DNA of 64,000 bases. Origin: Bradyrhizobium sp. CCBAU 53338 (GTDB taxonomy: Bacteria > Pseudomonadota > Alphaproteobacteria > Rhizobiales > Xanthobacteraceae). Below, piece after piece: positions 30,855 through 63,852 of this stretch (its first letter is position 1; each line of letters starts with the position of its first letter). The notes beneath the pieces were generated by a model. It worked only from the letters and a program-made list of their open reading frames with translations. It did not search any database and was not told where the DNA came from. Made by a program: the position numbers and the translations under genes. The DNA lies in assembly GCF_015291665.1 (NCBI RefSeq), contig NZ_CP030048.1, positions 1,116,001 through 1,180,000 of the forward strand. Direction: 5' to 3'.

Positions 30855-32224
30855 GCACCACGGCAATCTTCGGCAGCCATGTGCTGTCACGCAAAGATGG
30901 CGCGCAGCACGTGTTGCGTGACCATTGGGTCCTGGTCGAAGGCCAGAGGATCGCCGCGATCACCCGCGACAAGCCGAGCGCCGACGCCGTCTACGATCGT
31001 CCCGGCCGCTTCGTCCTGCCGGGCCTCTTGAACCTGCACAATCACTGCTTCTCTGAAGCCGTCGCGCGCAGTCACAGTGAGGACGGTAACGGCCGCAAGA
31101 ACAACCAGAGCATCGTCTATACGGTGCTGTTGCCGCTGACCAAACGCGGCGCCGATGTCCTGTCGGCGGAAGAGCGCCTGGCCGTCGCGCGGCTCGGCAT
31201 CCTCCAACTCCTGAAGGGCGGTGCGACTACGGTGATGGAGCCGTTCCGCAACTCGATTCCGGAGATGTTCGACGCGGCCGAAGAGATGGGAATCCGCTTC
31301 TATGGCGCGCCCTATCTGTTCTCGACGTCCGACGCCAAGGCCGGACCCGATGGTGTGGTCCGCTATTCCGGCGACGATGGCGCTGCCGACATGGCGACAT
31401 GGGATGCGCTCTATCAGCGCTGGAACAATCGTGGCGATGGCCGCATCTCACTTGCGATGAGCCCGCACGCCACCGATACCTGCGGCCCCGATCTGCTGAA
31501 GGCCTGCGCCATGCGGGCACGCGAGCTCGGCGTGCCCATCACGACGCACATGGCGCAGAGCCGTGCAGAGGTCGATACCATCGGCAAGCGCTATGGCGGC
31601 CGCACGCCAGCGGAGTATCTCGACTGGCTCGGTCTGCTTGCACCCGACCTGATGGCGGCGCACTGCATGTTCAGCAGCGACGATGACCTCAAGCTGATGG
31701 CTGCGCGCGGCATGACGGTGCTCAATTGTCCGCGCGTGTTCGCGCGCGCCGGCGTTACCGCGGCGTTCAGCCGGTTCGCGGAGCATGGCGTGCGCACCGT
31801 GGTCGGTACCGACGGCTACAACATGGATTTGCTCGGCGAACTCAATGCGGCGTCGCTGATCTCGAAGGTCACGTCGCAGCGCGCCGATGTCGCGAACTCG
31901 CCGGAGCTGATCGAGGCGAACACCGCCGTCGCCGCCGACGTCATCAAGCGGCCGGACCTCGGCCGGATCGAGCCGGGCGCCACCGCCGACCTCACCGTGG
32001 TCGACCTCACCCATCCGCATCTTCAGCCGCTGTTCGATCCGCGCCGCGCGCTGATCGCGCTCGCCAACCGCGCCAATATCGATCAGGTCATGGTCGATGG
32101 CCGCGTGCTGGTCGATGAGGGACGCTATCTCGGCGCGGATGAGGCGGCGATCACGGCAGCAGGTGCGGCTGCGATTGGCAAGATCTGGGACCTGCCGGAA
32201 GCGCAGGCGGCGTTCAACGGCTAG
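30851..32224 (+). CDS. metal-dependent amidohydrolase (deaminase / TrzA-AtzA-like)
   Basis: 457 residues from the ATG at 30851, overlapping the previous stop. Metal ligands follow the subtype III pattern: His63 and His65 in LPGLLNLHNHCF, His in PITTHMAQS, His in MAAHCMFSSDD and Asp in VVGTDGYNMD. Family members deaminate or dechlorinate N-heterocycles (guanine, cytosine, S-adenosylhomocysteine, triazines, creatinine). The exact ring is not readable. It ends the operon; its stop TAG and the TAG of the convergent LysR gene share the same CTAG. Confidence 0.88.
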   Translation: MSTTAIFGSHVLSRKDGAQHVLRDHWVLVEGQRIAAITRDKPSADAVYDRPGRFVLPGLLNLHNHCFSEAVARSHSEDGNGRKNNQSIVYTVLLPLTKRGADVLSAEERLAVARLGILQLLKGGATTVMEPFRNSIPEMFDAAEEMGIRFYGAPYLFSTSDAKAGPDGVVRYSGDDGAADMATWDALYQRWNNRGDGRISLAMSPHATDTCGPDLLKACAMRARELGVPITTHMAQSRAEVDTIGKRYGGRTPAEYLDWLGLLAPDLMAAHCMFSSDDDLKLMAARGMTVLNCPRVFARAGVTAAFSRFAEHGVRTVVGTDGYNMDLLGELNAASLISKVTSQRADVANSPELIEANTAVAADVIKRPDLGRIEPGATADLTVVDLTHPHLQPLFDPRRALIALANRANIDQVMVDGRVLVDEGRYLGADEAAITAAGAAAIGKIWDLPEAQAAFNG

Positions 32225-54775: not shown

Positions 54776-54860
54776 TCGAAGTGCCTCATGAGGTTCCGCT
54801 CTTGGAGGCCCTCCTTGGCACGATCCGACGGATTTTTCTCGCAAATTATTTCCGCAGCCC

Positions 54861-54887
54861 TGTCGGGGCAGGGCATAGTGGATCGTC
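54861..54887 (+). promoter_or_regulatory. ECF42-type promoter P1 (YCII-ecf42 operon)
   Basis: TGTCGG (54861-54866) and CGTC (54884-54887) are separated by exactly 17 bases, then TTT. The predicted start of transcription is about 25 bases before the YCII gene. The same motif and spacing occur at 56736-56762 and 62995-63021. Confidence 0.65.
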
Positions 54888-54919
54888 TTTAAAACAAGCG
54901 TTCAGGGAAGGTGCTGCCC

Positions 54920-55288
54920 ATGCTTTATGCGATACTTTGCTATCATGACGAAGACTTCGTCGGCTCCTGGAGCAAGGACCAGGACGAGGCCGTGATGAAG
55001 AAGCTCGCCGTGGTGCAGGAGAAGCTCACGAGCCAGGGCCGGCTCGGGCCGGTGGCGCGGCTGCTGCCGACCACCGCGGCGGCGACCCTGCGCAAGGAAG
55101 ATCCGCCGCTGGTGCTGGACGGTCCCTATGCCGAGACCAAGGAGCAGCTGCTCGGCTTCTACATCGTCGACTGCAAGAACCTCGACGATGCGCTCGACGT
55201 CGCGCGCGACCTTGGCGCTGCCAATCCCGGCGGCGCCTATGAAGTGCGTCCCGTCGGCGTGTTCCGGCCCGGAGGAATTTCGGCGTGA
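54920..55288 (+). CDS. YCII-related (DGPF-type) protein, partner of ECF42 sigma
   Basis: 122 residues from the ATG at 54920; a GTG at 54911 is poorly placed. YCII fold: LYAILCYHDEDFVGSW, and LVLDGPYAETKEQLLGFYIVDC, where DGPY replaces DGPF. Such genes are paired with ECF42 sigma factors. The stop overlaps the sigma gene start by four bases. Function is unknown; cytosolic. Confidence 0.88.
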   Translation: MLYAILCYHDEDFVGSWSKDQDEAVMKKLAVVQEKLTSQGRLGPVARLLPTTAAATLRKEDPPLVLDGPYAETKEQLLGFYIVDCKNLDDALDVARDLGAANPGGAYEVRPVGVFRPGGISA

Positions 55289-56580
55289 GCGACACTGATA
55301 CCGCCTGGATCGAGACCGCGCTGACCTCGGCGCGTCCGCAGGCGGTCGGCGCGCTGCTGCGCTATTTCCGCGATCTCGACACGGCTGAGGAGGCGTTCCA
55401 GAACGCCTGCCTGCGCGCGCTGAAGAGCTGGCCGCAGAACGGGCCGCCGCGCGATCCTGCGGCCTGGCTGATCATGGTCGGCCGCAACGTTGCCATCGAT
55501 GAGGTTCGCCGCACCCGCAAACAGCAGCCGCTGCCGGAGGACGACCAGGCGATCTCCGATCTCGACGACGCCGAGGGCGCGATCGCCGAGCGGCTCGACG
55601 GCTCGCACTACCGCGACGACATTTTGCGGCTGATGTTCATCTGCTGCCATCCGCAGCTGCCCGCGACACAGCAGATCGCGCTGGCGCTGCGCATCGTCTC
55701 CGGTCTCACCGTGAAGCAGATCGCGCGCGCCTTCCTGGTTTCGGATGCCGCGATGGAGCAGCGCATCACCCGCGCCAAGGCGAGGGTTGCGGAAGCCGGG
55801 ACGCCGTTCGAATCGCCCGGCGCGATCGAGCGCTCCGAGCGGCTCGCGGGCGTCGCGGCGATGATCTATCTGATCTTCAACGAGGGTTATTCGGCGAGCG
55901 GCGACACCGCCGAGATCAGGAAGCCGCTCTGCGAGGAAGCAATCCGGTTGGCGCGGCTGCTGTTGCGGCTGTTCCAGAGCGAGCCGGAAATCATGGGGCT
56001 CACGGCCCTGATCCTGTTGCAGCATGCACGCAGCGCCGCGCGCTTTGCCGAAGACGGCTCGCTGATCCTGCTCGACGATCAGGACCGCTCGCTGTGGAAC
56101 CGCACGATGATCGCGGAAGGCCTCGCTTTGATCGACAAGGCGATGCGCCACCGCCGCAGCGGGCCCTATCAGATCCAGGCTGCGGTCGCCGCGCTGCATG
56201 CGCGCGCCGCGACGCCCGACGAGACGGACTGGGCGCAGATCGACCTGCTCTACGGCGCGCTCGAAGTGGTACAGCCTTCACCGGTAGTGACCCTCAACCG
56301 CGCGGTTGCCGTCTCCAAGGTGCGCGGGCCGCAGGCTGCGCTCGATCTGATCGAGCCTCTGGCGCCCAAACTTGCCAACTATTTTCATTTCTACGGCGTG
56401 CGCGGCGCCTTCCTGATGCAGCTCGGCCGCAACGACGAAGCGCGAATCGCTTTCGATCGCGCCATTGCGCTCGCCAACACGTCGGCCGAAGCCGCCCACA
56501 TCCGAATGCACATCGATCGCCTGATCCGGGACAGCCAGCCGAAGAGCGGCGGTGCCCGGCAGGGTGCCAAGGCGAAATAG
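55285..56580 (+). CDS. ECF42-type RNA polymerase sigma factor with C-terminal TPR-like extension
   Basis: A 431-residue protein, more than twice the size of a plain ECF sigma factor. Region 2 (LRYFRDLDTAEEAFQNACLRALKSWPQNGPPRDPAAWLIMVGRNVAIDEVRR), region 4 (PATQQIALALRIVSGLTVKQIARAFLVSDAAMEQRITRAKARV), then a 250-residue helical C-terminal extension (LIFNEGYSASGD..., PSPVVTLNRAVAVSKVRGPQAAL, repeat-like tail) that is the ECF42 hallmark. GTG start with GGAGG nine bases upstream. It has no anti-sigma partner; the extension is thought to control activity. Likely autoregulated from P1. Confidence 0.9.
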   Translation: MSDTDTAWIETALTSARPQAVGALLRYFRDLDTAEEAFQNACLRALKSWPQNGPPRDPAAWLIMVGRNVAIDEVRRTRKQQPLPEDDQAISDLDDAEGAIAERLDGSHYRDDILRLMFICCHPQLPATQQIALALRIVSGLTVKQIARAFLVSDAAMEQRITRAKARVAEAGTPFESPGAIERSERLAGVAAMIYLIFNEGYSASGDTAEIRKPLCEEAIRLARLLLRLFQSEPEIMGLTALILLQHARSAARFAEDGSLILLDDQDRSLWNRTMIAEGLALIDKAMRHRRSGPYQIQAAVAALHARAATPDETDWAQIDLLYGALEVVQPSPVVTLNRAVAVSKVRGPQAALDLIEPLAPKLANYFHFYGVRGAFLMQLGRNDEARIAFDRAIALANTSAEAAHIRMHIDRLIRDSQPKSGGARQGAKAK

Positions 56581-56595
56581 AGCCCAGCTGTTTCC

Positions 56596-56720
56596 GCACC
56601 GTCATGGCCGGGCCAAACACTTGTCCCGGCCGTCCACGTTCTGTCGTGCTGTCCAAGTCCGCGGCTGCCCCGGTCGAGCCTGTCGAGCCCGGTCATGACG
56701 CTGGGTGGACGGGTGCCAAA
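56596..56720. repeat. dispersed repeat between ecf42 and the SRPBCC operon
   Basis: The stretch cgtcatggccgggcc ... gtcccggccgtccac ... gagcccggtcatgacg has facing arms CGTCATGGCCGGGC / GCCCGGTCATGACG. It is a palindromic unit of a kind repeated in these genomes and may separate the sigma transcript from the next promoter. Confidence 0.5.
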
Positions 56721-56735
56721 AATTCGCTTTCCGAG

Positions 56736-56762
56736 TGTCGGCTCCCTCAGTTCCCCTTCGTC
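56736..56762 (+). promoter_or_regulatory. ECF42-type promoter P2 (SRPBCC-VOC operon)
   Basis: TGTCGG (56736-56741), 17 bases, CGTC (56759-56762), then TTA. It is 26 bases upstream of the SRPBCC start and has the same bases and spacing as P1 and P3. Confidence 0.65.
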
Positions 56763-56787
56763 TTAATCCCGTATCCAGGAGTCATCC

Positions 56788-57324
56788 ATGCTGAAAGCTA
56801 TTGCCATTGTCGCTGCCGTGCTCGCGATCGGGATCGCGGGGATCCTCGTTCTTGCTCTGACCAAACCCGACACGTTCCATGTCGAACGCTCGCTCGCGAT
56901 GAAGGTGCCGGCCGAGGCCATCTATCCGCTCGTCTCCGATTTCCACTTCTGGACCGGCTGGTCGCCCTATGAGAACCGAGATCCCGCCATGAAGCGCACC
57001 TATGGCGGAGCCATGGCAGGCAAGGGCGCGACCTATGCCTGGGACGGGAACAACAATGTCGGTGCCGGCCACATGGAGATCCTCGAGGCGAACGCGTCAT
57101 CGAAACTTCGCATCAAGCTCGATTTCGAGCGGCCGTTCGAGGGCCACAACACGGCAGAGTTCACCTTTGTGCCGCAAGGCGATGCCACACTGGTCACATG
57201 GGCGATGTACGGTCCGGCGCCCTTGATGTCCAAGGTGATGCAGGTCTTCATCAACATGGACACCATGATCGGCAAGGATTTCGAGGCTGGCCTGGTCAGT
57301 CTGAAGAAGCTCAGCGAGAAGTAG
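56788..57324 (+). CDS. SRPBCC (START-like) family protein with N-terminal membrane anchor
   Basis: A 178-residue protein with an N-terminal hydrophobic helix (about 3-25) and then a helix-grip domain: FHVERSLAMKVPAEAIYPLVSDFHFWTGWSPYENRDPAMKRTYGG...YAWDGNNNVGAGHMEI...TLVTWAMYGPAP. Such proteins bind small hydrophobic ligands. It follows P2 at 26 bases and starts an operon with the VOC gene. Confidence 0.85.
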   Translation: MLKAIAIVAAVLAIGIAGILVLALTKPDTFHVERSLAMKVPAEAIYPLVSDFHFWTGWSPYENRDPAMKRTYGGAMAGKGATYAWDGNNNVGAGHMEILEANASSKLRIKLDFERPFEGHNTAEFTFVPQGDATLVTWAMYGPAPLMSKVMQVFINMDTMIGKDFEAGLVSLKKLSEK

Positions 57325-57328
57325 CGCG

Positions 57329-57376
57329 GGAAACCGCCAAGGAAACCGCCAAGGAAGCGGTCAAGGAAGCGAAGAG
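57329..57376 (+). repeat. four 12-base tandem units before the VOC gene
   Basis: Units at 57329-57340, 57341-57352 (identical, GGAAACCGCCAA), 57353-57364 (GGAAGCGGTCAA) and 57365-57376 (GGAAGCGAAGAG). In the VOC gene frame they would read ETAKETAKEAVKEAK-like, but no start codon precedes them close by. Confidence 0.6.
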
Positions 57377-57386
57377 GAGAGAAACG

Positions 57387-57806
57387 ATGCTCAGTGCCTA
57401 TCTGTTCTATCAGGACACCTGCGAAGCTGCGTTCAACTATTACGCCAAGGTCCTCGGCGGCAAGATCGACGCCATGATGCGCCTCTCGGAAGCGCCACCA
57501 TCGGACATGCCCCCGGGGCCGGCTGGCCGCGAGAAAACGATCATGCATGCGCGGATGACGCTGCCCGGCGGCGCTGTGCTGATGGCCTCGGACACGCCGC
57601 CAGAACATTTTCACAAGCCGCAGGGCTTTTCGATCTCGCTCACCGTCATGGACCCTGCGGAGGGTGAGAAAAAATTCAATGCACTCGCCGACGGCGGAAC
57701 CGTCACCATGCCGTTCAGCAAGACGTTCTGGGCCAAGGGGTTTGGCATGTGCGTCGACAAGTTCGGCATTCCCTGGATGGTGAATTGCCCGGCCGAAGGC
57801 ATGTGA
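57387..57806 (+). CDS. VOC (PhnB-like/glyoxalase fold) protein
   Basis: 139 residues from the ATG at 57387 with AGGAGAG upstream; the longer frame to 57198 covers the SRPBCC gene. Fold motifs: LSAYLFYQDTCEAAFNYYAKVLGGKI, KTIMHARMTLPGGAVLMASD, and FWAKGFGMCVDKFGIPWMVNCPAEGM. It is a PhnB/DUF899-type single-domain VOC protein of unknown substrate. VOC genes often accompany ECF42/YCII systems. Confidence 0.85.
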   Translation: MLSAYLFYQDTCEAAFNYYAKVLGGKIDAMMRLSEAPPSDMPPGPAGREKTIMHARMTLPGGAVLMASDTPPEHFHKPQGFSISLTVMDPAEGEKKFNALADGGTVTMPFSKTFWAKGFGMCVDKFGIPWMVNCPAEGM

Positions 57807-57840
57807 GCGTAACGTCCCGCTGATATGTTGGGCTGCGGTC

Positions 57841-57867
57841 TCCTCTCTCCGTTGTCGCGAGAGAGGA
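57841..57867. terminator. bidirectional hairpin between VOC and lipoprotein genes
   Basis: TCCTCTCTC (57841-57849) pairs with GAGAGAGGA (57859-57867) over 9 bases, with a 9-base loop, between convergent genes. No U-run. Confidence 0.5.
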
Positions 57868-57878
57868 GGCGCGGCACG

Positions 57879-58226
57879 TCAGCGGATCGATCCCGTCACG
57901 TCCGCGCCCGGTGGCTGCGCCACGCAGCCGCGGCAAATCACGAGCTTCGAGCCGAGTTGCCTGTCGTTCTCGGCTTCGATCTCGTCCTCGACCGCCCACC
58001 ACGCGTCGGAATAGGGGCGCAGCGTGGCCAGCACCCTTTGCCGCTCCACATTGGGATCGCTCTCTGGTGCTGCGTGACTTGCCGCGTGGCGTTTTGTGAC
58101 GGCAGGACGATTGGGATCCTGACCGAGTCCGTCCCACGCGATCGGGCGCCGCTCCGCCGCCGGCGCACTTGCGCATCCCGCGAGCGCTGCGCAAAAACTG
58201 AGCAAGACGAGAATGTGTCGAGCCAT
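57879..58226 (-). CDS. small putative lipoprotein
   Basis: A 115-residue protein with a lipoprotein signal (MARHILVLLSFCAALAGCASAP; lipobox LAGC, Cys18). The mature part is charged (RQRVLATLRPYSDAWWAVEDEIEAENDRQLGSKLVICRGC) with a CRGC pair near the end. No family recognised. It is presumably anchored to the outer or inner membrane. Confidence 0.7.
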   Translation of the reverse strand: MARHILVLLSFCAALAGCASAPAAERRPIAWDGLGQDPNRPAVTKRHAASHAAPESDPNVERQRVLATLRPYSDAWWAVEDEIEAENDRQLGSKLVICRGCVAQPPGADVTGSIR

Positions 58227-58508
58227 GTCGAACCTGTCGTGCGCTGTGCCACGCGAATCTGCGTGGAAAAATTTGCACCGCGACGTTTACCCGTGACTTG
58301 AGGGAAAACGACGTCGACGACATGGCCGAAAGGAGATTCGTGCGCTCGATTCACTTTGCGCAAGCGTTCGAGCGGGTTCGTGACACCACGCGAATTGCAT
58401 CGCACAACAACTGGCGCAAGATTAGGCTGTGCACTTCGCGCCAGAATCGATAACACTATTCATAATATCTACAAATTAGGGTGGGCGTGACTTGGAAGGG
58501 AGCGACCG
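58227..58508. other. non-coding region upstream of the lipoprotein and small-protein genes
   Basis: 282 bases with promoter potential both ways. An AT-rich run (aacactattcataatatctacaaatt, about 58450-58476) lies upstream of the 31-residue gene and may hold its -10 region. Nothing else was recognised. Confidence 0.35.
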
Positions 58509-58604
58509 ATGGCGGCGGCGCTACAAATCAACTTTGCTCTGTGGGGAATGCTCATCTGCGCAAGCATGAAGCTTGTGCCGATGGTTGAGATTGTCCTCCA
58601 CTAG
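58509..58604 (+). CDS. 31-residue small membrane-like protein
   Basis: The ATG at 58509 follows a good ribosome site (GGAAGGGAGCGACCG). The reading is MAAALQINFALWGMLICASM followed by KLVPMVEIVLH, a single hydrophobic stretch. The TAG at 58602-58604 shares CTAG with the TAG of the convergent small gene. It is too short to be recognised by similarity and no function is proposed. Confidence 0.45.
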   Translation: MAAALQINFALWGMLICASMKLVPMVEIVLH

Positions 58605-58780
58605 AACAGCAGCCAGTTTGTGACGGCTACGGCGCCCTGAGCAAGGACGTAGAGCCAGCCGACCGTCGCGACCGCGCTTGTGACGAGGAGCGTCAGGGTG
58701 AAGACCTGATCGCTTCCTTTCCGATGAAGTGATGACCGAGCTTGCGAACCGGCATGTCCGTCGCTGCCGACGCTTGTCAT
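58601..58780 (-). CDS. 59-residue small protein with C-terminal membrane segment
   Basis: The ATG at 58780 follows GCGGGGGAATTC, a strong ribosome site; an upstream start at 58816 would give 71 residues. The N-terminus is polar (MTSVGSDGHAGSQARSSLHR) and residues about 28-57 are hydrophobic (LTLLVTSAVATVGWLYVLAQ...). It is a tail-anchored-like membrane protein without known family. Confidence 0.45.
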   Translation of the reverse strand: MTSVGSDGHAGSQARSSLHRKGSDQVFTLTLLVTSAVATVGWLYVLAQGAVAVTNWLLF

Positions 58781-58885
58781 GAATTCCCCCGCGGACATCG
58801 GTGTCGCCGTGTTCATCTATGCCAGCTCAACCTTGGCTTTAGTGTGACGCGACTCACGCGGTGCTTGCGAACGCAGCACCGTGCG

Positions 58886-59227
58886 TCAGCTGATGAACAG
58901 CGCGATCAGCATGAAGCTCCTGCTCATCACGACAATCATGGGAACCACGAGGTTGCGCTGTCGCGACTGGCGACGCGGCGGAAGCCTTTGTCGCGGTGAC
59001 TCGCTCGCATGCGACGCCGGCTCCGAAGGTGCGAGCGAAACCCTGGCGTCCGAACCGATGTACTTCACGTACAACTCGAGCAGCCGCAGTTCGGACGTCA
59101 GGTCGATCAGTCCCTCGCGGTCTCGCCGCGTCAACTCCTCGAACTCGAGAGTTTCTTCCGAGCTCAACGGGCCGTGGACGATCCGTCCCTGATCCGACAT
59201 ACGGTAGCGAAGATCGATGGACTCCAT
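58886..59227 (-). CDS. hypothetical protein with C-terminal membrane segment
   Basis: 113 residues from the ATG at 59227 (MESIDLRYRMSDQGRIVHGPLSSEETLEF). An acidic helical N-terminal part (LTRRDREGLIDLTSELRLLELYVKYIG) is followed by a basic linker (RQRLPPRRQSRQR) and a final hydrophobic helix (NLVVPMIVVMSRSFMLIALFIS). The positive-inside pattern fits a tail anchor with the N-terminal part in the cytosol. No family recognised. Confidence 0.55.
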   Translation of the reverse strand: MESIDLRYRMSDQGRIVHGPLSSEETLEFEELTRRDREGLIDLTSELRLLELYVKYIGSDARVSLAPSEPASHASESPRQRLPPRRQSRQRNLVVPMIVVMSRSFMLIALFIS

Positions 59228-59511
59228 ATGCGTCCCATTTGAAAATGACTGATCTTGAAAATGTGGAACCATTGTAGTCCGCGGCCGCTGCTGAGATGTG
59301 ACGGTCGCGCAATCATCGCGATGCGCGACGGCCCGGTCTGGCCAGCAGCATCATAAACGCCGGGGCAAGGCTGCAAATCGCGTAAATTGTGCACGCATTG
59401 CGGAGCGCTTGAGCGGATTTCGCGCCGCAAGGGGCGGAATCGCAGGGTGGTGCCTAATCGTCGGACAGCGGAGGATTTGTCGCAGTCATATCGTAGCCCG
59501 ACGCCGAGACG

Positions 59512-59949
59512 TCACCGGCAGCGCGGATAGATCGCGGCGAGGTCGCGCCCCTTCAACAAGAGCAGCCGTGAGGTGAGGCCGCCGCGGCGGCTGATCCAGT
59601 CGCGGACCGGGCCGGGATAGGCCGCAAGCACGGCTTCGGATGCTTCCGGCTCGGCATAAAAGCGCCCGCGCCGGTCGACCGAACGGGCGGCATGAAAGCC
59701 GAGCACGGCGCGTCTTGTGACGCAGATGCGCTCGCCCGGCACGATGCTGAGCACCAGCGTACAGGCGGACAGGCAGGGGCCGTCGATCACCACGCGCTCA
59801 CCGCTCTCGCGCACCTTCTCGAACAAATCGAGGAACGGTCCGACCTGGCCGCCGGGACTCTGGATGATGCGGATCTCGGCCCTGGCGGGTAAGGAGGCGA
59901 GCAGGGCGGCGGCGAGCAGCAAGGCTGTGGTCGATGTGATGCGTCGCAT
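59512..59949 (-). CDS. secreted ClpP/crotonase-fold-like small protein
   Basis: 145 residues from the ATG at 59949 with a Sec signal (MRRITSTTALLLAAALLASLPARA). The mature part reads IRIIQSPGGQVGPFLDLFEKV, VVIDGPCLSACTLVLSIVP and RAVLGFHAAR, an SppA/COG3904-like pattern in which a Ser or Cys lies in CLSAC. It would be periplasmic. Substrate is unknown, and activity is not assured. Confidence 0.65.
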   Translation of the reverse strand: MRRITSTTALLLAAALLASLPARAEIRIIQSPGGQVGPFLDLFEKVRESGERVVIDGPCLSACTLVLSIVPGERICVTRRAVLGFHAARSVDRRGRFYAEPEASEAVLAAYPGPVRDWISRRGGLTSRLLLLKGRDLAAIYPRCR

Positions 59950-60031
59950 GAAGCACTCCACAAAGCCGGTCCGTAGGGTAAGTCAGCTGCAGTCTTAACC
60001 CACCATCTTTCGCGCCGCACGAAAAGAGGTT

Positions 60032-60820
60032 CTAGCCGTTCCGGCGCTGGCCGCGCAGCGTCGGCAGGCCGATGCCTGCCGCATCGAAGCCGCCATCGAC
60101 GGCCAAAATCTGGCCGGTGATGTAGCTCGAACGATCCGAGCACAGGAAGAAGATCGCCTCCGCGAGTTCCTCCTCCAGGCCGTAACGATTGAGCGGGATG
60201 GCGTCGTGATAGTCGGCGCGAATCTCCTTGGTGTGCACCTGCTTCGCCATCGCGGTGTCGACCGGACCCGGCGCGACGGCGTTGACGCGGATGTTGAGCG
60301 AGGCGAGCTCGACCGCGAGCTGCTTGGTGAGATGCGCGAGCCCGGCCTTGCTGGTGCCGTAGGCCGAGCGCAGCGTCGAGGCGCGCACGGCCGAAATCGA
60401 GGTGATGTTGACGATGGCGCCGCCATCGCCGTCGCGCATGAGCGGCACCGCCGCCCTGGTGCAGAGGAACGGACCGGTGAGGTTGACCTCGAGCACGCGG
60501 CGCCAGTCGGCTTCCGACGTCTCCATCAGCGGTGCGAACACCGCAATGCCGGCATTGTTGACCAGCGCGTCGAGCCGGCCGAAGCGCTGCGCGACCGCCG
60601 TCATGGCGGCGCCGACCGCGGTGCTGTCCGAGACGTCGCAGCTGAGCGCCAGCGTGTCGTCGCTCCTGCCGATGTCGGCGACCGCCCTGGCGAGCAGCTC
60701 GCCCTCGATATCGAGCAACGCGACCCGCCAGCCCTCGGCGAGAAACTTCTTCGCAGCCGCAAGTCCGATGCCGCGCGCGGCGCCGGTGACGAGGGCGATC
60801 TTCGGCTGGGCTGACGGCAT
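60032..60820 (-). CDS. short-chain dehydrogenase/reductase
   Basis: 262 residues from the ATG at 60820 (MPSAQPKIALVTGAARGIGLAAAKK); an ATG at 60859 adds 13 residues. SDR motifs: TGAARGIG, CDVSD, LVNNAGIAV, ITSISAVRAS with catalytic Ser, SAYGTSKAGL and PGPVDTAMAK. Cytosolic NAD(P) oxidoreductase, substrate unknown. Confidence 0.9.
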   Translation of the reverse strand: MPSAQPKIALVTGAARGIGLAAAKKFLAEGWRVALLDIEGELLARAVADIGRSDDTLALSCDVSDSTAVGAAMTAVAQRFGRLDALVNNAGIAVFAPLMETSEADWRRVLEVNLTGPFLCTRAAVPLMRDGDGGAIVNITSISAVRASTLRSAYGTSKAGLAHLTKQLAVELASLNIRVNAVAPGPVDTAMAKQVHTKEIRADYHDAIPLNRYGLEEELAEAIFFLCSDRSSYITGQILAVDGGFDAAGIGLPTLRGQRRNG

Positions 60821-60970
60821 CTGGGGGCTGTCCTTCTGGCTCGGATCTGGCGGTGGCATTGCGGCCAGCGTCCCTTACTGCGCCAGAAAGACCCCAGATG
60901 CAATCAAGGCCCGGCATCACGGGATGCAGGGCCTTGGTAAGGGGAGTCGAATGGTTCCGTGGAGGAACGC

Positions 60971-62635
60971 CTAGGACAGCTCCGCCGCTGCGCGCTGCAT
61001 GTTCGCCGACATGTCCGCGGTCACGGCGCTCTGTTCCTCGACCGCGGCGGCGGTGGTGGCGATGAACTCGTTGACGCCGGCGATCGCGGCCTTGATCGCG
61101 GTCAGCGAGTTCGCGACGTCGCCCGAGATCACGTTCAGCGCGTCGATTTCGGAGGTGATCGTGTCCGTCGCCTGCTTGGCCTGATTGGCGAGATTCTTCA
61201 CCTCCGAGGCGACCACCGCAAAGCCGCGGCCGGCTTCGCCGGCACGGGCGGATTCGATCGTGGCGTTGAGCGCGAGCAGATTGATCTGGCTGGTGATGCC
61301 GGAGATCATTTCGACGATGCCACTCATGGCTTGCGCCGCGGTCGCCAATTTCTGCGCCTGGCTGTCCGCGGATTCGACCCTCGTCGCCGCAGTCTTGGAA
61401 TTCTCGCGCGACTTCGCCATGGTTTCGGAAATCTCGCGGATCGACGCACTCATTTCTTCGCTGCCCGCCGCGACAGCCTCGATCAGTCCGCGCGCGGCCT
61501 CGGCCTTCTTGCGGCCGATCGCCTGCGCTGTGATGTCGGTGGCGTATTTCACCACCTTGTAGGGCTTGCCGTTGAGGTCGAAGATCGGGTTGTAGGACGC
61601 CTGGATCCAGATCTCGCGGCCGCCCTTGGCGATCCGCTTGTATTCGGCGGCCTGGTATTCGCCGCGATTGAGGGTCTCCCAGAACTGGCGGTAGGCGGCC
61701 GAGTTCTTCTCGTTCGGGTCGACGAACATGCCGTGATGCTGGCCCTTGATCTCGGCGAGCGAATAACCCATCGCCTTGAGGAAATTTTCGTTCGCGGTGC
61801 GGATCGTGCCGTCCATGTTGAACTCGATCACCGCCTGCGACTTCTGGATCGCGGCGAGCTGGCCGTCATTGTCGGCGGACTTCATCTTCTGGGCGGTGAT
61901 GTCGGTCGCGAACTTCACCACCTTGAACGGCTTGCCGCTCTCGTCGAGGATCGGATTGTAGCTCGCGAGAATCCAGATCTCGCGGCCGCCCTTGGCGATC
62001 CGCTTGAACTCGGCAGCCTCGAACTCGCCGCGGTTCAGCTTGGCCCACAGCGCGCCATAGGCCGCGCCGGCGCGGTCCTCCGGCGTCACGAACATGCTGT
62101 GGTGCTTGCCCTTGATCTCGTCCAGCGTATAGCCCATCGCACCGAGAAAATTCTCGTTGGCGGTGATGATGGTGCCGTCCGTCTGGAACTCGATCACGGC
62201 CTGGGCGCGGTTGATGGCGGCGATCTTGCCGGAATCTTCCATCGCCTTGATCTTCTCGGCCGTGATGTCGGTGGCGAGCTTGATGACGCCAGTCGGCTTG
62301 CCGTTCTTGTCAATGATCGGATTGTAGGAGGCCTGAATCCAAACGGGCTGGCCCCCCTTGGCGAAGCGCTTGTATTGCGCAGCCTGGTACTCCCCGCGAT
62401 TGAGCCGCGCCCAGAACTCGCGATAGACGGCGCTCTCGCGTTCGGCCGGATCGACGAAAATGCCGTGATGCCTGCCCTTGATCTCGCTGAGCGAATAGCC
62501 CATCGCCTTCAGGAAGTTCTCGTTTGCGGTGACGATGGTGCCGTCGAGACCGAACTCGATCACCGCCTGCGACCGGTCGAGCGCCTCGACCTCTGCGACG
62601 GCGTGCCTGACTTTCTTGTTCTGGAAATTGAACAC
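60971..62635 (-). CDS. soluble chemoreceptor with three tandem PAS domains
   Basis: The GTG at 62635 is chosen (GCGGAG six bases before; [22 protein letters not shown]), giving 554 residues; a start at 62677 adds 14. Three PAS repeats of about 122 residues share [28 protein letters not shown] and [11 protein letters not shown], and end in a PAC segment ([10 protein letters not shown]). The signalling tip is [37 protein letters not shown]. No membrane segments. The repeats (about 60% identical by eye) suggest recent duplication. Confidence 0.93.
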
Positions 62636-62994
62636 GTGATGCTCCGCAATGATCTGGCGGCGGATCGGCGGGATCACCGTATCGCCGCATTAGCGGAAAA
62701 GTTGCATGGTCTTGTTGAGCAACTGTAAACCCGTGCATAAACCTGAGTTAGCTCCGTATTTCCACGTGTGATGTCGATGTCGTTCAGTTGGCGAGCTTTC
62801 TGGCTTCATAAGCACTGTGCAATTCATACGAGCTGGCCGTAGTTTTACTGAGCCGTGCCGAAAAATATTCCCGTTCGGCGCATGGCGTCGGCTGCGACAG
62901 ATTGCCGGCGCTGCCGCGACTGCTTCGTCTTGCGGAGGTTCCCACACGCTGCCCGCGCGCCTCGCAATGACTTCCGAAATAATTTCCTCGGTCG
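62636..62994. other. non-coding region between the PAS chemoreceptor and promoter P3
   Basis: 359 bases upstream of both genes. The left part is AT-richer and includes the chemoreceptor promoter. The right part (about 62900-62975) contains the repeat-like stretch ctgccgcgactgcttcgtcttgcgg ... gcccgcgcgcctcgc. No gene was recognised. Confidence 0.35.
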
Positions 62995-63021
62995 TGTCGG
63001 CCTTGTAGCGGTTCGTTCGTC
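62995..63021 (+). promoter_or_regulatory. ECF42-type promoter P3 (second YCII operon)
   Basis: TGTCGG (62995-63000), 17 bases, CGTC (63018-63021), then TTG. It lies 47 bases before the YCII gene at 63068 and matches P1 and P2. A small hairpin (GCGGGCC-aga-AGGCCCGC) lies in the leader at about 63034-63051. Confidence 0.65.
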
Positions 63022-63067: not shown

Positions 63068-63472
63068 ATGCGATTCATGATGCTGATGATCCCGCTCGGC
63101 TATGAGACTGCGCCGGCGGACGTCCAACTCGGTCCCGAACGCGTTGCCGCGATGATGCGCTACAACGAGGCACTGAAGGACGCCGGCGTGCTGATCACGC
63201 TGGACGGCCTGCATCCGCCGTCGATGGGCGCGCGCGTCTCGTTTTCGACCGGTGTGCCCGTCGTGACCGACGGGCCCTTCGCGGAGGCCAAGGAAGTGCT
63301 GGGCGGCTACTGGATGATCGAGGTCGGCTCGCGCGAGGAGGCGATCGCCTGGGCCAGGCAATGCCCGGCCTCGGCCAATGAGATCATCGAGATCCGCCAG
63401 GTGCAGGAAATGACCGATTTTCCGCCCGACGTGCAGGCCGCTGCCGCCGGTTTCGAGGACCTGAAGAGCTAG
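63068..63472 (+). CDS. YCII-related DGPF-motif protein
   Basis: 134 residues from the ATG at 63068 with GAGGA upstream; a GTG at 63056 is less likely. MRFMMLMIPLGYE, GVLITLDGLHPPS and VVTDGPFAEAKEVLGGYWMIEV carry the DGPF motif, the marker of proteins tied to ECF42 sigma factors. Cytosolic; function unknown. Confidence 0.9.
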   Translation: MRFMMLMIPLGYETAPADVQLGPERVAAMMRYNEALKDAGVLITLDGLHPPSMGARVSFSTGVPVVTDGPFAEAKEVLGGYWMIEVGSREEAIAWARQCPASANEIIEIRQVQEMTDFPPDVQAAAAGFEDLKS

Positions 63473-63489: not shown

Positions 63490-63852
63490 ATGAGCAACGA
63501 CACCTATCTTGCCGTCTTCCTCGGTAGCAAGACCAGTCCGAAATGGGCCGCATGGAATGCGATGTCCGACGCCGAGCGCAAGGCGAGGGAGATCGAGGGC
63601 ATCGCGGCCTGGAAGGGGTGGGTCGAGAAGCACCAGGGGGCGATCCAGGCCATGGGCGGCCCACTGGGCAAGACCAAGAAGGTCGATGCCAAGGGTGTCG
63701 TCGACATCGCCAACGAGATGGGCGCCTTCACGGTGGTTCGCGCCACTTCGCACGAGGCGGCCGCCAAGATGTTCGAGAACCATCCGCATTTCGCGATCTT
63801 CCCCGGCGAGCGCGTCGAGATCATGCCGGTGCTGCCGATCCCGGGCGGCTAG
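63490..63852 (+). CDS. YCII-like family protein
   Basis: A 120-residue protein, AAGGGAG upstream of the ATG at 63490. Dimeric alpha/beta YCII-like fold: YLAVFLGSKTSPKWAAWNAMSDAER, AAWKGWVEKHQGAIQAMGGPLGKTKKV, MGAFTVVRATSHEAAAKMFENHPHF. It follows the DGPF gene at 17 bases, same transcript. No catalytic residues can be assigned. Confidence 0.82.
   Translation: MSNDTYLAVFLGSKTSPKWAAWNAMSDAERKAREIEGIAAWKGWVEKHQGAIQAMGGPLGKTKKVDAKGVVDIANEMGAFTVVRATSHEAAAKMFENHPHFAIFPGERVEIMPVLPIPGG

Follow-up and report, generated by a model that had tools for sequence, protein, structure and literature searches.

Which transcription factor reads the three copies of one bipartite sequence, TGTCGG-N17-CGTC, that precede three small operons in a 64,000-nucleotide stretch of the Bradyrhizobium sp. 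CCBAU 53338 chromosome? The stretch, called the window throughout, is C1:1116001-1180000 of an 8.28 Mb genome of two contigs (genome G000), and one of the three operons encodes a sigma factor of the ECF42 group at 55285-56580. From sequence comparisons, we conclude with a probability of about 0.88 that the three copies, sites 1-3, are promoters read by polymerase carrying this sigma factor, which would also run about ten further promoters elsewhere in the genome. Presence and absence of the motif over 150 genomes, a footprint across related loci, and a control on spacer length support the link to the window sigma factor. The relevant features of the locus are as follows.

54861-54887, plus strand: site 1, TGTCGG-N17-CGTC followed by TT; predicted promoter of the YCII-ECF42 operon
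54920-55288, plus strand: YCII-family gene (PF03795, E 1.1e-19), with a stop codon that overlaps the GTG start of ECF42
55285-56580, plus strand: ECF42 sigma factor of 431 amino acids (Sigma70_r2, Sigma70_r4_2, DUF6596)
56736-56762, plus strand: site 2, TGTCGG-N17-CGTC followed by TT; predicted promoter of the SRPBCC-VOC genes
56788-57324, plus strand: SRPBCC protein (Polyketide_cyc2, PF10604, E 2.2e-11)
57387-57806, plus strand: VOC protein (PF06983 and PF00903)
62995-63021, plus strand: site 3, TGTCGG-N17-CGTC followed by TT; predicted promoter of the second YCII operon
63068-63472, plus strand: second YCII gene (PF03795, E 1.3e-21)
63490-63852, plus strand: small protein directly 3' of the second YCII gene, presumed operon member; no Pfam or NCBIfam matches

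An earlier reading of the letters alone, the original prediction, had placed the motif at these positions with an exact 17-base spacing, stated how far each copy stands from its gene start (54920, 56788 or 63068), and named the 55285 product an ECF42 sigma factor; positions, spacing and distances proved correct, and the ECF42 assignment is supported. The sites lie 25-46 bases upstream of the YCII-ECF42, SRPBCC-VOC and second YCII operons, and all three read on as CGTCTT, a TT extension that had gone unremarked. The sigma factor has the sigma2 and sigma4 domains of its group (Sigma70_r2 at residues 17-79 and Sigma70_r4_2 at 116-167) and the long C-terminal extension, which is TPR-rich in the group, with DUF6596 at 186-287 of the 431 residues; no TPR family reached an E value of 0.001 in the domain scan of the protein. 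The YCII/DGPF neighbour characteristic of ECF42 loci is present as the PF03795 gene that overlaps the sigma-factor start. The closest named relatives of the protein are in Bradyrhizobium.

Could a short, GC-rich pattern simply recur by chance? Raw counts in the window, and of TGTCGG-N17-CGTC in the genome, rise only modestly above control, as chance would have it. Within the window, TGTCGG-N16-18-CGTC matched four times; 100 shuffled sequences averaged 0.94 matches, and one of them also reached four. The fourth match, at 31161, has an N16 spacer. Genome-wide work combined pattern searches, protein searches and retrieved stretches. The genome scan that the original prediction had proposed, run here at N17, gave 38 matches against 24 for the reversed pattern, and the ten-letter core without a following YT is thus not specific alone. 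With YT added, the result was clearer: TGTCGG-N17-CGTCYT occurred 13 times in G000 (reversed control, 3) and 122 times over nine genomes of the genus (reversed, 19). A looser form, TGTCGN-N17-CGWCYT, was set aside as unspecific (27 matches, control 17). In 1.63 Mb of relatives' loci, the core was found 257 times and its reverse twice. When the spacer of TGTCGG-Nk-CGTCYT was varied from 12 to 23 in these loci, k = 17 gave 247 matches, k = 13 gave 19, k = 15 gave 5, and other lengths gave 0-3; without YT, the corresponding counts were 257 (k = 17), 64 (k = 13) and 40 (k = 15). The original claim that three matches in 8 kb are far beyond chance is therefore weak as an argument from raw number, and gene placement, fixed spacer and conservation make it decisive. 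Chance has almost no remaining credit as an explanation, given the fixed spacer, the placement before a few gene families, and the conservation of sites 1 and 2 at fixed places across relatives.

That conservation was followed in the best 80 of 362 loci matching the ECF42 protein, 79 of them titled Bradyrhizobium and one Frankia. The latter contig, titled Frankia sp. RB7 (L056), holds a Bradyrhizobium-like ECF42 locus of 95% identity, and its name or assembly looks wrong. Sites were chosen by exact match, so that their cores are conserved by construction and the weight rests on the denominators: all 80 loci have an exact site 1, 72 have an exact site 2, and 69 have a site located beyond 3 kb on the downstream side, with four of the other 11 loci ending within 4.5 kb of the sigma-factor gene. 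The far regions held 30 further sites, 27 assigned to SnoaL-like genes by position and frame and three before GST genes. Because the distance of the last far site to the start of the sigma-factor gene ranged between 3.4 and 10.3 kb, the promoter travels with its gene rather than with its neighbourhood.

A gene-centred count, which took relatives with at least 50% identity and at least 60% coverage and sought an exact site within 170 bases upstream, gave the same picture: 79 of 79 first YCII genes, 71 of 78 SRPBCC genes, 56 of 75 second YCII genes, 27 of 31 SnoaL-like genes and 3 of 3 GST relatives carried one. The gene at 63490 has a relative in 75 of the 80 loci with the motif directly ahead of it in only one (L127), as expected for the second gene of an operon. 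The extra SnoaL-like gene, held by 31 of the 80 loci (L054, L059 and L066 among them) and bearing its own promoter copy in 27, in many loci has that promoter some 460 bases upstream of the site that follows; the window has no site there.

If the motif is read by this sigma factor, it should follow the sigma factor from genome to genome, and this expectation bears on the most serious alternative, in which EcfG (ECF15), ECF41 or another ECF42 paralogue reads the sites and the adjacent ECF42 gene is a mere neighbour. We compared motif counts over 150 genomes of the order with the best match of each genome to the window ECF42 protein; the 58% threshold was chosen once the identities were known. 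Thirty genomes with a sigma factor of at least 58% identity, G000 included, held 251 sites (control, 34), or 1.46 per Mb. The seven at 48-57% were hardly enriched, with 15 sites against 12 in the control (0.46 and 0.37 per Mb). No clear enrichment was seen in the remaining genomes: 31 with other ECF42s only held 17 sites (control, 32; 0.14 per Mb), and the 82 in which no match reached 1e-30 held 80 (control, 64; 0.27 per Mb). The first group without the window's own family (25 genomes) differed from the last two groups at p = 8e-15 by a Mann-Whitney test that ignores kinship, and in each of the 11 families that include carriers as well as non-carriers, intermediate genomes set aside, the carriers had more sites per Mb. 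In one genome, the ECF42 gene (G009:C1:6104633-6105921) matches in two pieces and may be interrupted; 12 motif sites persist there.

Paralogues are nevertheless plausible competitors, because the genome of the window contains three further ECF42 genes (L007, L009 and L010), 36-42% identical to the window sigma factor, and the sites of two are close variants of the motif. Each of the three has a YCII gene directly upstream, as the window gene does, and two have N17 sites before that gene; their sites differ in sequence, TGTCGA-N17-CGTC at L009 and TGTCGT-N17-CGAC at L007. L010 has no site before YCII; a VOC frame downstream of it is preceded by TGTCGA-N17-CGAC, and the adjacent, divergently oriented GST gene carries TGTCGG-N17-CGTC. 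A survey covered 121 ECF42 loci, among which the window gene figures twice (as L008 and L321) and one locus lacks a clear open reading frame; 82 showed an N17 site ending in CGTC or CGAC and 39 did not. All 34 labelled loci whose ECF42 was at least 48% identical to that of the window had TGTCGG-CGTC. All 48 labelled loci below 48% had other forms: 31 TGTCGA-CGTC, 10 TGTCGA-CGAC, 4 TGTCGT-CGAC, and 3 others including one TGTCAG. This division argues against a paralogue as reader.

The same division coincides with a difference in the protein. Residue 158, which we take by analogy with E. coli sigma-E to lie in the sigma4 helix expected to read the -35 element, is Glu in 41 of 42 ECF42s at or above 48% identity and in 1 of 77 below. 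The ECF42 of Streptomyces venezuelae uses a -35 element TGTCGA, and the sites of the window have G as the sixth base. A code in which E158 specifies this base was rejected on its own, as there are only two changes on the tree, inseparable from descent; the five Bradyrhizobium loci whose site 2 reads TGTCGA temper it further. A code that would tie residues of the protein to the third -10 base (T in CGTC, A in CGAC) was also rejected: its best columns included 63 and 64 of sigma2, and the four independent pairs on supported branches were not significant. Searching the PDB sequences with the sigma domains returned nothing at 1e-5.

What would the sigma factor control? All 13 sites of G000 stand 10-98 bases ahead of an open reading frame (targets were picked by a simple codon score), and by Pfam these frames comprise three YCII, four SRPBCC, two VOC, two GST, one MFS and one Ku protein. 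The original prediction of a small regulon joining YCII, SRPBCC and VOC proteins was right about these families and too narrow in its local, three-promoter extent. In five more genomes of the genus, we examined 65 of 75 sites (seven Ku sites and three at the sigma-factor locus of G007 were omitted), plus one of 12 in G001, and with G000 counted a scoring frame followed 72 of 79 sites in the genus. Genomes of other families of the order (G240, G268, G260, G247 and G265) gave 42 scoring frames for 44 sites examined of 52. The 114 target proteins clustered, with names taken from Pfam matches of single members, into YCII (21), SRPBCC types (11, 5 and 5), VOC types (10, 6 and 3), GST (8) and MFS (7). 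Smaller clusters were a set of five small proteins that begin with an export-like sequence (no Pfam match), DUF1428 (4), DUF899 (3), RibD_C (3), and pairs of SnoaL, SDR and SMP-30 proteins; there were 17 singletons, Ku among them.

The G000 site at 1935890 precedes a Ku gene (PF02735) by 36 bases. A Ku relative is present in 40 of 40 genus genomes, and all 40 have a window-type ECF42, with a partial or two-piece match in two. Among the best Ku loci of 30 genomes, one each, 26 carry TGTCGGAAC-N14-CGTCT at -58 to -66; of the four without the motif, one is near a contig end, one is of another Ku class, and two are unexplained. In 20 further Ku loci, three from G000, the exact motif occurs in 13; the remaining seven are a G000 paralogue with one -35 base changed, one locus with at least two changes, and five loci of more distant Ku classes.

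EcfG (ECF15) promoters have the consensus GGAAC-N16/17-CGTT. The ku site, one GST site and one VOC site of G000 read TGTCGGAAC, which contains the GGAAC of the EcfG -35 element, and GGAAC is present in all 26 motif-bearing ku sites of the 30-locus set. The loosest EcfG form, GGAAC-N15-18-[CG]TT, fits 11 of 11 motif-bearing ku loci read in gene orientation, but GGAAC occurs in just 3 of the 13 G000 sites, the strict form GGAAC-N16/17-[CG]GTT in 0 of 20 Ku loci, and a looser one with [CG][GT]TT in 1 of 30. We rejected EcfG as the sole reader of the ku site because the strict form is absent. The GGAAC within the site suggests possible dual control of the ku promoter by ECF42 and EcfG, a point on which the strict and loose patterns disagree. 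Literature searches showed, among the matches listed, no title on a link between ku and ECF42. With the genome comparison and the paralogue division, these counts make another sigma factor an unlikely reader of the sites as a set, and the ECF42 of the window remains the preferred one.

Sinorhizobium meliloti offers an experimental parallel (PMC6180224). RpoE10 is an ECF42 sigma factor in the gene order YCII-sigma-hydrophobic-ligand protein-glyoxalase, and Table 1 has TGTCGG-N17-CGTC at SMc01149, SMb20475 and SMc01151 (spacers counted in this analysis). The resemblance to reported ECF42 promoters asserted in the original prediction is thereby upheld: RpoE10 shares motif and spacing, and the window sites have the TGTCG[AG]-like -35 and CG[AT]C -10 elements of the group. 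On overexpression of RpoE10 six genes rose, with increases of two operons, SMc01149-SMc01148 and SMb20475-SMb20474; here, by contrast, 13 sites are predicted and GST, MFS and Ku genes are included. The ECF42 of Streptomyces venezuelae and ECF-10 of Pseudomonas putida share the C-terminal extension and a nearby YCII gene, according to a review (PMC8999054). Since S. meliloti RpoE10 shares gene order, motif and spacing, this kind of regulon is already known.

The mapped start of SMc01149, nine bases after CGTC (PMC6180224), also bears on whether the sites might be operators of a repressor or activator rather than sigma-factor promoters. Within the spacer of site 1 (54867-54883), each letter of GGCATA is kept in at least 90% of the 80 loci and the rest of the spacer is more variable, so that an additional protein may bind the DNA at this point. 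Against an operator, the 17-base spacing is promoter-like, a start is mapped nine bases after CGTC at S. meliloti SMc01149, and the core has no inverted repeat as judged by eye; we regard this explanation as very improbable and retain the promoter assignment. Just 5' of the -35 element in sites 1 and 3, at 54843-54853 and 62977-62987, stands an A/T-rich AAATWATTTCC, partly kept in relatives and perhaps an UP-element.

Several observations weigh against the assignment of these sites to the ECF42 sigma factor. First, no scoring open reading frame followed 7 of the 79 genus sites and 2 of the 44 from other families; some matches in other genomes lie in coding DNA, and some singleton targets are evident background, such as a match inside an rpoB-like frame (L276, by eye). 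Second, site 2 was not exact in 8 of the 80 loci: five read TGTCGA, one TGTCGC, and two had nothing within two mismatches. Third, 19 of 75 second-YCII relatives had no exact site within 170 bases, with another, site-bearing YCII gene further upstream in several of these loci, and among the 36 loci whose ECF42 is at least 58% identical (window gene counted twice), no exact site with an N17 spacer precedes YCII in 7, two of which have N18 there. Finally, in S. meliloti (PMC6180224), overexpressed RpoE10 did not raise its own YCII-rpoE10 operon despite a nearly identical motif, which in that operon overlaps the mapped start. This last result divides the evidence on autoregulation, which the original prediction had proposed: the motif before the sigma factor's own operon speaks for it and the S. 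meliloti response against it, and for the regulon described here it is a prediction only.

Two further features of the region were noted by eye. The gap between the SRPBCC and VOC genes (57325-57386) contains direct repeats, imperfect and roughly 12 bases long, that resemble GGAAACCGCCAA, and between the promoter groups, at 60971-62677 on the minus strand, is a gene for a protein with three similar repeats and an end like that of methyl-accepting chemotaxis proteins.

How might the system work? TGTCGG would serve as the -35 element and CGTC, 17 bases away, as the -10 element, with transcription starting about nine bases after CGTC by analogy with SMc01149. The sigma factor is probably held or activated through its C-terminal extension, as the literature on the group indicates (PMC8999054), and a signal would then release it; control by this extension, with no anti-sigma factor, is a mark of ECF42 factors. 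Active sigma factor would turn on the YCII-ECF42, SRPBCC-VOC and second YCII operons and, in addition, about ten single promoters before genes for SRPBCC, VOC, YCII, GST, MFS and Ku proteins, most of which belong to detoxification-type families. We infer a role against reactive small molecules or electrophiles because GST, VOC and MFS proteins are among the targets.

The new elements are how large the predicted regulon is and which genes it takes in, the site before ku, and a sixth base that divides the ECF42 clades. As a joint proposal, which we hold tentatively and at somewhat less than even odds, one Bradyrhizobium ECF42 would run a dispersed regulon of about a dozen promoters that joins detoxification (YCII, SRPBCC, VOC, GST, MFS efflux) to double-strand-break repair via ku, whose promoter may be composite and readable by EcfG as well, and the clade-specific E158 of sigma4 would read G as the sixth -35 base, helping to separate the four ECF42 paralogues. 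ECF42 is a widespread group, and a multi-promoter regulon defined by sequence shows the possible scope of its control and gives reporters for finding its signal. Through the ku site, a connection of small-molecule stress with end-joining repair can be tested directly, and the paralogue-specific variants of the motif provide a tractable case of sigma factor insulation.

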